This document shows, piece by piece, positions 1 through 35,746 of a stretch of 35,746 nt of DNA (position 1 is the stretch's first letter; the number at the start of each line of letters is the position of its first letter). Below the pieces are notes generated by a model. That model was not told the origin of the DNA and did not search any database. It saw nothing but the letters and a program-made list of their open reading frames with translations. The position numbers and the translations under genes are program-made. Origin of the DNA: a virus. The DNA is taken from IMG/VR virus record IMGVR_UViG_3300047557_003109, positions 1 to 35,746 of that record. One strand, 5' to 3'.

Positions 1-1499
1 GCAAAATCCGTGGCGGAGAAGTTCAGCACACAGGTGTTGTCCCTTTCCTCAAGAAGTTTGAATCAACTGTCCGCTGCTGCACTCAAAATGGCATCCGTGG
101 TGGATCAGCAACTGTCCACTTCCCAATATGGCACCAAGAAATAGAAGACATCCTAGTACTAAAAAATAATAAAGGAACTGAAGATAATCGCGTTCGTAAG
201 TTAGACTACAGCATCCAAATCAGCAAACTCTTCTATGAGAGATTCATTAAAAACGAAGAGATTTCTCTCTTCTCTCCCCATGCCGTTCCTGGTCTGTATG
301 ATGCTTTTGGTACTGATGGATTTGACGAGTTATACATTCGTTATGAACAAGATGAGTCTATTCCAAGAAAAACTATCAGTGCTCAAGAACTCTTTCTAGA
401 TCTCCTAAAAGAACGCGCTGAAACTGGTCGTCTTTATATTATGAATATCGACCATTGCAACTCTCACTCTTCCTTTATGGATAAGGTTGAAATGAGCAAT
501 CTCTGTCAGGAAATTACTCTGCCAACTAAACCGATTCAACATATTGATGATCCAAATGGTGAAATTGCTCTCTGCATTCTTAGTGCTATTAACGTTGGAA
601 AAATCCGGGATCATGAAGATCTTGAAGTTCTTTGTGATCTTGCTGTTAGGAGTCTTGATGAACTCATTGATTTTCAGGGATACCCCGTTAAAGCAGCAGA
701 AATCGCAACTAGAGCACGTCGTTCACTTGGGGTAGGTTATATTGGGTTGGCACACTATCTTGCGAAATATGGCGCAAAATATGAAGATCAAAAAGCATGG
801 GAATTAGTTCATGATTTAACTGAGGCATTTCAATATTACCTCATTCAAGCAACTGTAAATCTTGCTAAAGAAAAAGGTGCATGTGAATATTCACATCGAA
901 CAAAGTATGGTCAAGGTATTCTTCCAATTGATACATACAAAAAAGATGTTGACGAAATCGTACCTAACGACTTAAAATATGATTGGGAGAATCTTAGACA
1001 GCAGGTTAAGCAATACGGTGTTAGGAACTCAACACTGTCCGCACAGATGCCATCGGAGAGCAGTTCCGTTGTGTCAAATGCAACCAACGGAATCGAACCA
1101 CCTCGCGGATACTTGTCCATTAAAAAATCAAAGAAAGGACCTCTCAAGCAAATTGTTCCTCAGTATCAAACACTTAAGAACAATTATACGCTTCTTTGGG
1201 ATATGCCTAGCAATCGTGGGTATATCAATATTGTTGCAGTTATGCAAAAATTCTTTGATCAAGCAATTTCTGGAAACTGGTCATATAATCCAGAAAATTA
1301 TCCAGATAATGAAGTTCCTACTTCAGTAATGGCGCAAGACCTTTTGACTACATATAAGTACGGTTGGAAAACCAGCTACTATCAAAATACACACGACATG
1401 AAGAATGATGAGGTTGAAGAAACCCGTCAGTCTCTTGAAAATTTAATTTCCAATATTCTAGATACGGAGGAGGAAGATTGTGAGTCTTGTAAGATTTAA
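1..1499 (+). CDS. nrdA: Ribonucleotide reductase class Ia, large subunit (3' part; 5' end outside window)
   Basis: The alpha subunit reduces ribonucleoside diphosphates to deoxy forms for phage DNA synthesis, partnered with NrdB. The frame is open from base 3, giving 498 residues; against a usual length near 760, roughly the first third lies upstream. Visible family landmarks are the conserved block RGGSATVHFPIWH near the window start, the active-site loop NLCQEI (thiyl-radical Cys codon at 504-506, with the Asn and Glu partners), the paired radical-transfer tyrosines in SYYQNT, and the C-terminal redox pair CESCKI that accepts electrons from thioredoxin or glutaredoxin. The in-frame ATG at 441 is internal and is not the gene start. 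nrdB follows after 22 bases. The call is secure; only the N-terminus is missing. Confidence 0.97.
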   Translation, partial: KIRGGEVQHTGVVPFLKKFESTVRCCTQNGIRGGSATVHFPIWHQEIEDILVLKNNKGTEDNRVRKLDYSIQISKLFYERFIKNEEISLFSPHAVPGLYDAFGTDGFDELYIRYEQDESIPRKTISAQELFLDLLKERAETGRLYIMNIDHCNSHSSFMDKVEMSNLCQEITLPTKPIQHIDDPNGEIALCILSAINVGKIRDHEDLEVLCDLAVRSLDELIDFQGYPVKAAEIATRARRSLGVGYIGLAHYLAKYGAKYEDQKAWELVHDLTEAFQYYLIQATVNLAKEKGACEYSHRTKYGQGILPIDTYKKDVDEIVPNDLKYDWENLRQQVKQYGVRNSTLSAQMPSESSSVVSNATNGIEPPRGYLSIKKSKKGPLKQIVPQYQTLKNNYTLLWDMPSNRGYINIVAVMQKFFDQAISGNWSYNPENYPDNEVPTSVMAQDLLTTYKYGWKTSYYQNTHDMKNDEVEETRQSLENLISNILDTEEEDCESCKI

Positions 1500-7933: not shown

Positions 7934-9445
7934 ATGAAACTCAAACAACTGATGCTTGCACCTGTTGCTCTGGGAATGGTTGCTCCTGCTGTTGCTAACG
8001 CAGCAGATCTGAATATGTCGGCAGTCAACCAATACTCAACTTCAGATCAGGTCACAAGTATCAATCAATTCTCTGATGTGCAACCAACTTCTTGGGCATA
8101 TCAGGCACTCAGCAATCTTGTTGAGCGTTATGGATGTGTAGCTGGTTATCCTAACGGTACATTTGCTGGTGGTAAAGCAATGACTCGTTATGAGGCAGCT
8201 GCTCTTCTGAATGCTTGCCTCGATCGTGTATCAGAAACTACTGATGAACTTCAACGTCTTCTAAAAGAATTTGGTACTGAACTTGCCGTTCTTCGTGGTC
8301 GTGTAGATGGACTAGAGCAAAAAGTTGGTCAACTAGAAGCACAACAGTTTTCCACCACTACCAAACTTCGCGGTGAAACCAACTTCATTCTTGGTGGTGT
8401 TCCCGGTGCCCTTCTGCAACCAACTAAGGCATATCCTAATGGGCAAAATGTAGGTAATACTGCATTTAACTATGACCTTCGCCTGAACTTTGATACTTCA
8501 TTTACTGGTAAAGATCTGCTTCGTGCTCGCCTGCGTTCTGGTAACTTCTCTAGTCAACCCTTTGGTTCTTCCTCTTCAGTTCTGAAACTGGATAAGGCAG
8601 AAACTTCACAAGGCACTGGTACTTCTAGTAATGTATGGCTTGATCGACTGTATTATCAGTTTCCAGTTAGCAATGGTGTAACTCTAACTGCTGGTGCTCT
8701 AGTTCGTAACACTGAGATGTCATGGATTCCTAGTGCATATCGCTCAGAAATTCTTGACTTCTTTACTACTGCTGGTGCTCCTGGCGTTTATAACAAGGCA
8801 GTTGGTTCTGGTTTTGGTGCCCAGTATTTCCAACCTGGCAAAAAAGGTGGTTTTGTTGCTGGTGTAAACTATGTCGCTCAAAATGGTGATAATTCTGAAA
8901 CTGGTGTGTTCAATGAGCAAGGTGCTCTGAATACTCTTGCGCAGATTGGTTATCGTGCTCCTCAGTGGGGTGTTGCCTTTGGTTATCGTTATGGTACTCA
9001 AGGAACTCGTGTTCGCACTTATAATGGTCTGCTTGGTGCTAACGGTACTCTTGCTGCAAATCAAACCTCAAATGGTTATGCAGTGAACGCTTATTGGCAA
9101 CCTAAGACCTCTGGTATCCTTCCCTCCGTGAGTGGTGGTTATGGTTGGAATACTGTAAGTGGTACTTCTACTCCTAACAATGCAACCAATACTTCTACTT
9201 GGTTCGCTGGTCTTCAGTGGTCTGATGTATTTGCTAAGGGTAATAGTGCAGGCGTTGCTTATGGTCAACCTGGAAACTCTGCTGGTCTGAGTAAAAAAGC
9301 ATCACTACTTGAAATTTTCTACAAGTACAAGGTATCTGATAATATTAGTGTCACTCCTGCAATCATCTATGTTGCAAACGATCAAGCATTTAAAAATGCT
9401 TCTTCTAATTGGGGTGGTGTAATCCAAACCAAGTTCACTTTCTGA
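7934..9445 (+). CDS. Cyanobacterial-type outer-membrane porin with SLH domain
   Basis: 503 aa. A signal peptide (residues 1-24, cleavage after ANA) is followed by an S-layer-homology domain at about 45-98 (FSDVQPTSWAYQALSNLVERYG, GYPNGTFAGGKAMTRYEAAALL), a coiled-coil at about 100-138 (LKEFGTELAVLRGRVDGLEQK) and a long beta-barrel region rich in Gly, Ser, Thr, Asn and aromatics, ending in Phe. This order matches cyanobacterial SomA/OprB-like porins, in which SLH binds the wall and the barrel forms the pore. A phage copy may alter uptake across the host outer membrane, for example of ions or phosphate, or mask a receptor; the choice is open. It lies close to pstS. No Shine-Dalgarno; the start is placed by the signal peptide. 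Confidence 0.88.
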   Translation: MKLKQLMLAPVALGMVAPAVANAADLNMSAVNQYSTSDQVTSINQFSDVQPTSWAYQALSNLVERYGCVAGYPNGTFAGGKAMTRYEAAALLNACLDRVSETTDELQRLLKEFGTELAVLRGRVDGLEQKVGQLEAQQFSTTTKLRGETNFILGGVPGALLQPTKAYPNGQNVGNTAFNYDLRLNFDTSFTGKDLLRARLRSGNFSSQPFGSSSSVLKLDKAETSQGTGTSSNVWLDRLYYQFPVSNGVTLTAGALVRNTEMSWIPSAYRSEILDFFTTAGAPGVYNKAVGSGFGAQYFQPGKKGGFVAGVNYVAQNGDNSETGVFNEQGALNTLAQIGYRAPQWGVAFGYRYGTQGTRVRTYNGLLGANGTLAANQTSNGYAVNAYWQPKTSGILPSVSGGYGWNTVSGTSTPNNATNTSTWFAGLQWSDVFAKGNSAGVAYGQPGNSAGLSKKASLLEIFYKYKVSDNISVTPAIIYVANDQAFKNASSNWGGVIQTKFTF

Positions 9446-10962: not shown

Positions 10963-11127
10963 ATGAAAATTAATCTCTGGTATTGTGATAGTATGAAACA
11001 ATGGCGTTGGACTTTAACCGACGACCATCGACCAATTATAAAACAAGAATCTGGACAAAGACAAAATCTTCGTGATGCTATGAATGATATAGCAAATACG
11101 GTAGAGTATCTTATTGGTCAAAGATAA
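10963..11127 (+). CDS. 54-aa hypothetical protein
   Basis: Reads MKINLWYCDSMKQWRWTLTDDHRP in two parts: an aromatic, beta-like first half and a helical second half (LRDAMNDIANTVEYLI). The Trp-rich opening resembles a small conserved cyanophage protein as I recall, but no function is known. It follows the pstS terminator and AT-rich sequence with two TATAAAAT boxes that could act as late promoter variants. It ends three bases before the late box of the Dps-like gene. Confidence 0.65.
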   Translation: MKINLWYCDSMKQWRWTLTDDHRPIIKQESGQRQNLRDAMNDIANTVEYLIGQR

Positions 11128-11130
11128 AAA

Positions 11131-11138
11131 TATAAATA
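11131..11138 (+). promoter_or_regulatory. T4-type late promoter (TATAAATA)
   Basis: Exact TATAAATA 18 bases before the Dps-like start codon at 11157. Confidence 0.75.
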
Positions 11139-11156
11139 TTTTAAAAGTATAATGTG

Positions 11157-11594
11157 ATGGAAAAATTATACAAAATTTTATCAGATACTCAGGCAAGTCT
11201 TTTTGTCTTATTTCAAAAAACTTGGGTGTATCATTGGCATATAATTGGACCTGATTTTTATCAAGTTCATACGATGTTTGGTGAGCAATATACGTCTTTA
11301 TTCGAAGAAATTGATAGATTATCAGAGCACATTCGTTTTCTTGGAGCAAAACCTGTCAGTGCTCTATCAAGAGTTTCAGAAGTATCGAGAATTTCAGAAG
11401 CAAAAAGCGGTCTTTCTGAAATGGACATGATTGAAGATTTGCTTAAAGATCATAAAACTCTTATAGATATGTTTAGTGAAGCGGCAAAAGTTGCTGAAGA
11501 ACTAAATTCAAGAGGAACAACAAACCTACTTGATGATTTAAACGAAGCACACGGTAAGTTTGTTTGGTTTTTAAGATCATTTACTGAAAAATAA
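11157..11594 (+). CDS. Dps-like ferritin family protein
   Basis: 145 aa, the length of a Dps monomer. The core motif YHWHIIGPDFYQVH, then EIDRLSEHIRFLGAKP, matches the Dps ferroxidase region. By spacing with E. coli Dps, His26 (His51), His38 (His63), Asp53 (Asp78) and Glu57 (Glu82) are conserved, but the Asp67 position is Gly42 in MFGEQY. Dps proteins form 12-subunit shells that store iron, detoxify peroxide and often bind DNA; here iron oxidation may be altered. It could protect phage DNA or host from oxidative stress. A GTG three bases upstream (11154) is an alternative start. Late promoter upstream. Confidence 0.82.
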   Translation: MEKLYKILSDTQASLFVLFQKTWVYHWHIIGPDFYQVHTMFGEQYTSLFEEIDRLSEHIRFLGAKPVSALSRVSEVSRISEAKSGLSEMDMIEDLLKDHKTLIDMFSEAAKVAEELNSRGTTNLLDDLNEAHGKFVWFLRSFTEK

Positions 11595-11609: not shown

Positions 11610-11867
11610 ATGGAAAATTTAAGAATCAGATGCCGCTCCTGTGGAAAGGAGTTAGAGGGGCATCCTACTAAAACAGTAACGTGTGGTTGCCCCAATATGG
11701 CAACCATTCGCGGTGATAAGATTTCAGCAGTTGACTTATCTAAAGTTATTATGCTAAACTCTAATCAAATCAAAAAGAAATCTGGAGTTCTTACAAACGA
11801 AGATATTGCTTGGCAAGAAGCAAGGCGTCAACGTAAAGTAAGAAAACTCGATTTTGAAGTCCGCTGA
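11610..11867 (+). CDS. Small zinc-ribbon-like protein
   Basis: 85 aa. Cys8 and Cys11 (RCRSCGKEL) with Cys25 and Cys27 (VTCGCPN) form a CxxC...CxC knuckle that probably binds zinc. The rest is helical and basic, ending RRQRKVRKLDFEVR. Small zinc-ribbon proteins of this kind occur in cyanophages without known function; nucleic-acid binding is likely from charge. tRNA-Ser begins 9 bases after the stop. Confidence 0.65.
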   Translation: MENLRIRCRSCGKELEGHPTKTVTCGCPNMATIRGDKISAVDLSKVIMLNSNQIKKKSGVLTNEDIAWQEARRQRKVRKLDFEVR

Positions 11868-33554: not shown

Positions 33555-33670
33555 AAAAATTCTTTACTGAAAAGGCAGAACGTATTAATGGATGGTTTGC
33601 AATGATTGGAATCGTTGCTGCTATGGGTTCTTATCTTGTCACTGGTCAGGTAATTCCCGGAGTGTTCTGA
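33551..33670 (+). CDS. hli: Short high-light-inducible protein
   Basis: 39 aa. FTEKAERINGWFAMIGIVAA holds the Hlip helix motif (ERxNGxxAMxG), then SYLVTGQVIPGVF, a typical short Hlip ending. The chlorophyll-ligand Glu and Asn are present; the Arg of NGR is Trp. Second Hlip of the operon; ATG overlaps the preceding stop. Confidence 0.9.
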   Translation: MKKFFTEKAERINGWFAMIGIVAAMGSYLVTGQVIPGVF

Positions 33671-33672
33671 TT

Positions 33673-34242
33673 ATGTTTAATATTATTCGTCGTAAAAAAA
33701 CTATGGAAGTAAGTATGCGTAAAGAAGGTTATCAAATTCCTCAAGTTGAATTCGTGTTTCGTGAGAATGGTGAGTTTGTAACTCGCACCACCTCTGAACT
33801 TTTTGCTGATAAGCGTGTGGTAATCTTCTCACTTCCTGGTGCATTTACTCCCACTTGCAGTGCGTATCAACTTCCTGGTTTTGAAGAGAAGTATGATGAT
33901 TTCATTGGTCTTGGTATTGATGAAATTTACTGTATCTCGGTGAATGATGGTTTCGTAATGAACGCTTGGGCACAGGACCAAAATATTCAAAACGTAAAAC
34001 TTATTCCTGATGGAAATGCTTATTTCACCCGTTCGATGGGTATGCTCGTTCGCAAATCAAATCTTGGGTTCGGTGAGCGTAGTTGGCGTTACGCTGCTGT
34101 GGTAGATCATGGTATAATTGAAAAACTATTTGTTGAAGCAGGGCAGTCTGATAATGCTGCCACTGACCCTTATGATGAAACTACTCCAGAAAAAGTATTG
34201 GAGTATGTAAAGTCTGAAGTGCGAGAAGCAGTAATCGCTTGA
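33673..34242 (+). CDS. Peroxiredoxin (Prx5-type)
   Basis: 189 aa. FSLPGAFTPTCSAYQLPGFEE carries the peroxidatic Cys62 in the PxxxTxxC motif of the Prx5 type; FVMNAWAQDQ, FTRSMGMLV and RYAAVVDHGIIEKLFVE complete the Redoxin fold. It reduces peroxides with help from thioredoxin or glutaredoxin. Its place between hli and psbA supports a role against light-driven oxidative damage. Starts at ATG 33703 or 33715 are also possible because the first ten residues are basic and not conserved. Confidence 0.9.
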   Translation: MFNIIRRKKTMEVSMRKEGYQIPQVEFVFRENGEFVTRTTSELFADKRVVIFSLPGAFTPTCSAYQLPGFEEKYDDFIGLGIDEIYCISVNDGFVMNAWAQDQNIQNVKLIPDGNAYFTRSMGMLVRKSNLGFGERSWRYAAVVDHGIIEKLFVEAGQSDNAATDPYDETTPEKVLEYVKSEVREAVIA

Positions 34243-34540: not shown

Positions 34541-35545
34541 ATGACTGCTACCATCGCTCGTCAGCGTGGTGGAAGTAACACTTGGGAACAGTTCTGCGAG
34601 TGGGTAACTTCTACCGATAACCGTCTTTATGTCGGTTGGTTTGGAACTCTAATGATTCCAACCCTTCTCGCTGCTACTATCTGTTTCATTGTTGCTTTCA
34701 TCGCTGCTCCTCCAGTCGATATCGACGGAATCCGTGAACCCGTTGCTGGTTCACTTCTCTACGGTAACAATATCATCTCTGGTGCTGTTGTTCCTTCTTC
34801 AAATGCCATCGGTCTTCATTTTTATCCTATCTGGGAAGCATCAAGTCTCGATGAATGGCTCTATAATGGTGGTCCTTACCAACTTGTAGTCTTCCACTTT
34901 CTGATTGGCATCTATGCTTATCTGGGTCGTGAGTGGGAACTTTCATACCGTCTAGGTATGCGTCCTTGGATCTGCGTTGCTTACAGTGCTCCTGTTGCTG
35001 CTGCTTCTGCTGTATTTCTAGTCTATCCTTTCGGTCAAGGTTCTTTCTCTGATGGTATGCCTCTGGGTATCAGTGGTACTTTCAACTTCATGCTTGTGTT
35101 CCAGGCAGAGCACAACATTCTAATGCACCCCTTCCATATGCTTGGTGTTGCTGGTGTTTTCGGTGGTTCTCTGTTCAGTGCTATGCACGGTTCTCTAGTA
35201 ACTTCCTCACTGGTTCGTGAAACCACTGAGAACGAGTCACAGAATTATGGTTACAAGTTCGGTCAAGAAGAAGAGACTTATAACATTGTTGCTGCTCATG
35301 GTTACTTTGGTCGTCTAATTTTCCAATATGCCTCATTCAACAACTCTCGTTCACTTCACTTCTTCCTTGCCAGCTGGCCTGTAGTTGGTATTTGGTTCAC
35401 TGCTCTTGGTGTTAGCACCATGGCTTTTAATCTCAACGGACTGAATTTCAACCAATCAATTCTAGACTCACAAGGTCGCGTATTGAATACTTGGGCTGAT
35501 GTACTCAACCGTGCAGGACTAGGAATGGAGGTAATGCATGAGCGT
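34541..35545 (+). CDS. psbA: Photosystem II reaction-centre protein D1, exon 1
   Basis: 335 codons of D1 (usual length about 360) from [11 protein letters not shown] through GMEVMHER. All five membrane helices and the plastoquinone and P680 region are present (for example [20 protein letters not shown] and [18 protein letters not shown]). The coding part ends after HER at 35545, where a group I intron begins; the frame then runs 28 meaningless codons to a stop at 35632. The split falls right after the Mn-cluster ligands His332 and Glu333 (standard numbering) and before His337, Asp342 and Ala344, which must be in exon 2 beyond the window. Maintains photosynthesis during infection. No Shine-Dalgarno. 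Confidence 0.96.
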
Positions 35546-35746
35546 TTTGTGAACGCATGGCGCTCGTTAAATCGGATGAATTGCTGGGACTCTCTTGTAG
35601 ACAATCAGCAGCCAAGCCTTGCAGGCGTGTAAGGAAGGTTCAGAGACTAGGCGGTGGATGACGCTTCATCCGTAATACGCCACTAGCGTCCGACACTCTT
35701 ATGAGTGATGATATAGTCCGCTCCCTTTGGCGACAAAGGTTAAAAC
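35546..35746 (+). other. Group I self-splicing intron in psbA (5' 201 bases)
   Basis: P1: exon GAGCGT (35540-35545) pairs with guide GCGCTC (35560-35565), giving the U-G pair at the splice site. P element AATTGCTGGGAC (35579-35590) and Q AATCAGCAGCCAAGC (35603-35617) pair as P4. R GTTCAGAGACTA (35638-35649) and S ending ATAGTCC (35719) pair as P7. Extra hairpins (GGATGA/TCATCC; CACTC/GAGTG) match P7.1/P7.2 and P8. P9 CCTTTG-GCGA-CAAAGG has a GNRA loop. The 3' splice site and exon 2 lie outside. psbA introns are known in some cyanophages, sometimes with a homing endonuclease downstream. Confidence 0.93.

Follow-up and report, generated by a model that had tools for sequence, protein, structure and literature searches.

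Does a glycine at a position where Dps proteins are expected to carry a ferroxidase ligand mean that a phage-borne Dps has lost, or altered, its iron chemistry? This question is raised by a gene within a viral DNA stretch of 35,746 nucleotides (IMGVR_UViG_3300047557_003109), analysed at its full length and hereafter called the window. The first-pass annotation described its product as a phage Dps-like protein with four of five ferroxidase positions conserved, and with Gly42 where Dps has Asp67. The two features that define the problem are the following.

11157 to 11594, plus strand: dps, a 145-residue Dps-family miniferritin with an ATG start, ligands H26, H38, D53 and E57, and Gly42 at the Asp67 position.
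11280 to 11282, plus strand: codon 42 (Gly), equivalent to the Asp67 position of E. coli Dps by translation and alignment; all 104 phage proteins have Gly there.

The identity of the gene was confirmed by its matches to PF00210 (E=4.2e-24; 85.5 bits against a Pfam cut-off of 24.5), to phrog_3636 (E=1.9e-34) and to numerous Dps chains of solved structure (best E=7.3e-21). The protein scored below the curated cut-offs of NF006975, the E. coli-type DNA-binding Dps (45.2 bits against 114), and of NF052461, the cyanobacterial DpsA equivalog (52.7 bits against 300). Its ATG is backed by viral relatives, which have the same first Met, and a GTG at 11154, three bases 5' of this ATG, extends only the mechanical reading frame. 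A Dps match was obtained for 89 of 50,697 phage records, of which only two accessions of Synechococcus phage S-SRM01 exceeded 60% identity. The closest annotated phage Dps is that of S-SRM01 (Kyanoviridae, Serangoonvirus), at 86.1% identity, annotated as a DNA starvation/stationary phase protection protein, and it has the same Gly, downstream gene and late promoter as the window. The words 'Dps' and 'starvation' occur zero times in the main text of PMC8557907, and open-licence literature listings yielded no publication on a cyanophage Dps. The window gene encodes a phage Dps of a known kind, an identification that we hold more firmly than any function proposed below, and the fragment that bears it is that of a T4-like cyanophage.

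The conservation of Gly42 was evaluated in 227 viral loci, namely, 225 from three scans of viral contigs (the best 80 were kept from each, and several contigs recur across scans), the S-SRM01 record and the window itself, which together gave 104 distinct proteins with 57-100% identity to the window Dps. A genome search with the phage-only alignment as query found no bacterial relatives; a broader query gave at least 487, of which the best 80 were used, and the bacterial counts in this work describe these 80, which lie nearest to the window protein, rather than Dps at large. First, alignment with E. coli Dps pairs H26, H38, D53 and E57 with H51, H63, D78 and E82, and G42 with D67, so that both the four conserved positions and the substitution reported at first pass hold. 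Second, none of the 104 distinct phage proteins lacks Gly42 or any of the four ligands, and the H/H/D/E set is kept in 80 of 80 bacterial relatives (best 80 of at least 487). Third, the equivalent of position 67 in these best 80 of at least 487 is E in 54, M in 20, G in 4 and Q in 2; that is, 26 of the 80 naturally have a non-acidic residue there, including Met in all five picocyanobacterial proteins among them (L118, L130, L132, L137 and L161).

Judged from these alignments, an acid at position 67 is not what defines the Dps family, since Glu is found in only 54 of the 80 bacterial relatives and Gly in all 104 phage proteins. A 'missing ligand' call based on E. coli Dps is therefore misleading, because within the nearest bacterial subfamily this position is variable, and the viral clade has Gly there without exception. 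The first-pass annotation had itself named family members naturally devoid of this Asp as evidence against its reading, and such members exist. The sharing of Gly by 104 of 104 phage relatives also rules out a recent lesion or a sequencing error. Invariance alone is unexceptional, as 47 of the 145 columns are invariant across the 104 phage proteins, yet in these sequences it shows Gly42 to be stable rather than decaying. The first-pass suggestion that the neighbouring Glu43 might compensate did not find support: position 43 is acidic in 94 of the 104 phage proteins (E in 79, D in 15) and non-acidic in the other ten (K in 3, N, G and A in 2 each, T in 1), so a replacement ligand there is not needed, and the corresponding residue of NpDps4, Asp68, is no ligand according to PMC6675082.

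To read what the glycine may do to the ferroxidase centre, the phage protein was compared with known systems. Canonical Dps proteins have Asp or Glu at residue 67, which contacts the metal, at site B, solely via water, and in NpDps4 neither Asn67 nor Asp68, the equivalent of position 43, takes part as a ligand (passages of PMC6675082). PA0962 of P. aeruginosa (8ff9), the closest bacterial sequence type by its features, has as the only protein ligands of its di-iron site two His of one subunit and an Asp and a Glu of the other, as given in part of PMC10002758. The four ligands and their spacing (H37, H49, D64 and E68 in PA0962) are common to this enzyme and the phage Dps, as are an FxxQY motif after the second His, an HxK..W[M/F]L motif near the end and the absence of a basic tail. 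However, the two proteins are only 27% identical, and where PA0962 has Glu at position 67, the phage protein has Gly; Y27 and Y30 are both replaced by Phe, the His that precedes the first ligand by three residues is replaced by Trp, and the Arg following the ligand Glu by His. According to the same part of PMC10002758, PA0962 oxidises Fe2+ with H2O2 but not with O2, the mutant is sensitive to H2O2, and the enzyme cleaves DNA in vitro. Taken together, the precedents of PA0962, canonical Dps and NpDps4 suggest that Gly42 removes an outer-shell group and not a direct ligand.

The first-pass annotation had proposed that iron oxidation may be slower or altered, and that the protein may mainly bind DNA or hold iron. 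That residue 67 is acidic in canonical Dps, with a water-mediated contact to site B (passages of PMC6675082), speaks for this reading, and the fixation in the phage clade of a Gly that is rare in bacteria (4 of the 80 nearest, the best 80 of at least 487) may reflect a function of its own. Nevertheless, complete conservation of the four ligands would be unexpected for a dead ferroxidase centre, PA0962, the solved relative of the nearest type, oxidises iron without a ligand from residue 67 (part of PMC10002758), and the phage proteins have neither an N-terminal tail nor a basic C-terminal one, with net charges from -5 to -17. We thus regard an impaired centre in a protein devoted to DNA or to iron storage as unlikely. 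An effect of Gly42 on rate or on the affinity of site B is possible, since the bacterial majority (54 of 80) keeps Glu at 67, and Gly42, a fixed change at a secondary position, is probably tolerated.

The reading that we consider likely is that of a dodecameric phage miniferritin, made late, which would carry out peroxide-dependent iron oxidation at a four-ligand centre as PA0962 does. The protein would assemble into a dodecamer and be synthesised late in infection, and Fe2+ and H2O2 would be removed at a centre formed by H26 and H38 of one subunit and D53 and E57 of its partner. Gly42 would leave empty the place of the accessory, water-mediated carboxylate of site B, and H2O2-dependent oxidation should continue because site A is complete, as in PA0962. 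In this manner the phage Dps would limit Fenton damage while the phage finishes its cycle in a light-driven infection. Ferroxidase activity, the preference for H2O2 and the protective role are what we infer here, and the first-pass idea of a late-infection role in countering oxidative or iron stress is plausible.

Other residues near the site are invariant in the phage proteins and unlike those of most bacterial relatives, so the chemistry may differ as well. W23 is found in 104 of 104 phage proteins where the 80 nearest bacterial ones have H (64), Q (14) or R (2); H58 is equally invariant, against R in 79 of 80; and F16 and F19, also in 104 of 104, stand where Tyr is found in 64 and 68 of the 80, respectively, and align with Y27 and Y30 of PA0962, two Tyr of its radical-trapping network. 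It is therefore conceivable that the centre has been retuned, with position 67 lacking an acid and W23 and H58 close by, towards good use of O2 or another metal, as in the His-type cyanobacterial Dps (NpDps4, TeDpsA and TlDps1). Among these, NpDps4 likewise lacks an acidic ligand at 67, where it has Asn, and takes O2 as its oxidant for Fe2+, PMC6675082 offering no evidence that it uses H2O2; and W23, H58 and G42, each in 104 of 104 phage proteins, are rare or absent in the 80 nearest bacterial relatives. Yet the use of O2 by NpDps4 is not attributable to Asn67 alone, and the residues that mark a His-type centre, His78 and His164 (parts of PMC6675082 and PMC7327923), are absent from the phage proteins: Asp53 occupies the former position in 104 of 104, and position 138, matched to 164 from the structural ranges 1..145 and 26..171, is M in 83 and F in 21, the window protein having D53 and F138. 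H132 was considered as the counterpart of His164 and rejected, because the structural ranges place position 138 there; it is general to the bacterial subfamily (79 of 80 nearest relatives, best 80 of at least 487). A retuned chemistry accordingly receives a small probability, owed to the replacement of the radical-trapping Tyr by F16 and F19 and to the phage-specific W23, H58 and G42.

The fold was evaluated with an AlphaFold2 monomer model, for which 34 proteins from the window and the fetched loci served as the input alignment (pLDDT 96.0, pTM 0.91). The modelled helices, at 2-28, 34-61, 70-76, 88-115 and 119-143, form a four-helix bundle with a short BC-loop helix, which superimposes over 145 residues on 2c41, a Dps from T. 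elongatus (Z 24.5, rmsd 0.9), and on 8ff9 (Z 23.7, rmsd 1.1); the top solved matches are Dps proteins, in agreement with Foldseek. Canonical Dps from E. coli, Listeria innocua and B. brevis (1n1q) have this fold and four of the five named ferroxidase positions in common with the phage protein, which differs in having neither Asp nor Glu at 67 and no N-terminal DNA-binding tail. E. coli Dps binds DNA through its tail. No basic terminal tail was found in the model or in the 104 phage sequences, with helix A beginning at residue 2, and net charge runs from -5 to -17 across them. Tail-type DNA binding thus appears unlikely from model and sequences, although binding through surface patches is possible, and the DNA-binding role offered at first pass is the less likely function: the lack of a DNA-binding tail and the acidity of the protein favour detoxification of peroxide and iron. 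As a separate observation, two phage proteins (L285 and L307) are extended at the C-terminus by about 27 mostly acidic residues, unlike the other 102.

Phylogenetic reconstruction, with 14 phage rows in the tree (13 of 20 named loci plus the window, the rest being non-representatives of identical groups), recovered the phage Dps as one clade with support of 100/99 and a long stem, apart from picocyanobacterial Dps. The join of this clade with L128 was flagged as long branches meeting, its bootstrap not having settled. Recent capture from a picocyanobacterial host is not supported, as the phage clade stands apart from L118, L130, L132, L137 and L161. On the evidence of these sequences, Gly at 67 is an old, fixed trait of one cyanophage Dps clade and not a recent loss. 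In the same tree, the Dps of L163, filed as a Bifidobacterium breve metagenome-assembled genome, groups with that of a cyanobacterium (support 80/58), and its contig is probably mis-binned.

The surroundings of the gene bear on when, and with what, it is expressed. Three further features are needed here.

11131 to 11138, plus strand: T4-type late promoter TATAAATA, ending 18 nt 5' of the dps ATG.
11136 to 11150, plus strand: short inverted repeat with arms at 11136-11141 and 11145-11150 and one G-U pair, overlapping the promoter end.
11610 to 11867, plus strand: 85-residue, Cys-containing reading frame of phrog_8074, the constant downstream neighbour of phage dps.

The late promoter seen at first pass is present as described, TATAAATA lying 18 nt upstream of the ATG. 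Of the viral dps loci, 224 extend far enough upstream to be scored, some of them being repeats of one contig; NATAAATA was found within 45 nt upstream in 219 of these and was lacking in five, and three further loci were too short upstream. It lies at 14-23 nt in 68 of 68 distinct dps leaders. Since the same element precedes just 20 of 342 other reading frames of at least 80 codons in the same loci, as opposed to 219 of 224 dps loci, its presence exceeds what chance would give. A late promoter would also fit a virion or DNA-packaging component with no enzymatic role, but the invariance of the ligands argues against this reading, and the near neighbours of dps are a tRNA and small genes of no assigned function, not structural genes; nothing positive emerged in its favour, and we consider it very improbable.

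A phrog_8074 homologue was found within 800 nt downstream of dps in 89 of 91 distinct loci, which makes this gene a constant partner of dps, and a tRNA gene precedes dps in 73 of 99 distinct loci, being tRNA-Val in 69 of those. The window has the downstream gene and lacks the upstream tRNA: whereas S-SRM01 has tRNA-Val directly 5' of dps (part of PMC8557907), the window has pstS (identified by eye) and a 54-residue reading frame. The latter, at 10963-11127 on the plus strand, matches phrog_2818 (E=2.3e-28) and occupies the place that tRNA-Val has elsewhere upstream of dps. The window also encodes, at 7934-9445 on the plus strand, an OprB-type porin with an SLH domain (PF04966, E=2.2e-14; PF00395, E=1.5e-9), and S-SRM01 has an annotated porin three genes 5' of dps. 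A peroxiredoxin-like gene (Redoxin/AhpC-TSA) is located at 33592-34242 on the plus strand, with 33703-34239 matching PF08534 (E=4.7e-25), and is a second peroxide-handling gene on this phage fragment; just 3' of it lies a reading frame, 34541-35632, that is psbA-like by eye. An apparently functional miniferritin lacking a DNA-binding tail is thus placed in T4-like cyanophages beside peroxiredoxin-like and psbA-like genes, and this company suggests that control of iron and peroxide in the late phase of light-driven infection is a task taken on by some phages.

The inverted repeat in the leader, whose left arm takes in the last bases of the promoter, is weak in the window, where the longest Watson-Crick run is three pairs. 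Across the 68 distinct dps leaders, however, stems of at least five pairs are found in 57 when G-U pairs are counted and in 49 when they are not, and are absent in 11. The arms covary (ATACC..GGTAT, ATACTC..GAGTAT and ATACTTC..GAAGTAT), and the arms of one leader pair better with each other than after permutation of the right arms between leaders (mean 5.09 against 4.40, SD 0.096; none of 1000 permutations was as good). In the same loci, Watson-Crick stems of at least five pairs occur in 21 of 25 dps leaders and in 10 of 36 other TATAAATA leaders, and shuffling gave p<0.05 in 17 of 25 and 4 of 36, respectively, although all of these leader-repeat figures are inflated by the common descent of the leaders. 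The presence of stems in just 10 of 36 other leaders rules out a general late-gene feature. To judge from these leaders, the repeat is a conserved feature of the phage dps clade, and its overlap with the late promoter is a new finding of this study.

The layout resembles that of T4 gene e, where the 5' arm of a start-site repeat and the promoter overlap. In T4 e, soc, 49 and I-TevI the late promoter lies within the stretch encoding the 5' arm of a hairpin, which blocks read-through mRNA and leaves late mRNA, lacking that arm, free (parts of PMC3014915 and PMC2988022). The dps leaders differ from T4 hairpins in their short stems, mostly of 5-8 pairs, and in a Shine-Dalgarno that is weak by eye. 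We estimated the mean cost of opening positions -12 to +13, which in read-through mRNA was 10.66 kcal/mol, against 9.09 with the left arm shuffled (intact higher in 53 of 68). The assumed late mRNA, with start points taken from T4 by assumption, cost 7.75 kcal/mol, below read-through in 59 of 68, partly owing to its shorter length. The unpaired probability of -8 to +3 showed no clear change from the arm (p=0.085), and the window's own leader gave 7.50 against 9.28, the reverse of the predicted effect. A literature search for cyanophage transcript starts found nothing. By analogy, a T4-type delay of translation may operate in dps leaders, and the repeat makes the timing of dps testable.

These elements could be joined into a more elaborate account, in which a cyanophage Dps lineage of its own, long apart from host Dps, would have rebuilt its centre round Gly67, with a Trp fixed one turn ahead of the first His ligand, a His fixed behind the Glu ligand, and a different oxidant preference (e.g. 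O2 as well as H2O2), its synthesis being delayed by a hairpin of the gene e type over the late promoter; taken as a whole, we hold this account to be doubtful, and the PA0962-like miniferritin is the reading that we prefer.

Leader stems of 6-10 pairs after TATAAATA, with p<0.05, were also observed at four small late-type genes (L003:3242, L002:7644 on the minus strand, L064:8260 on the minus strand, and L037:5836), whose starts resemble, by eye, those of small homing-endonuclease proteins, as in T4 I-TevI.
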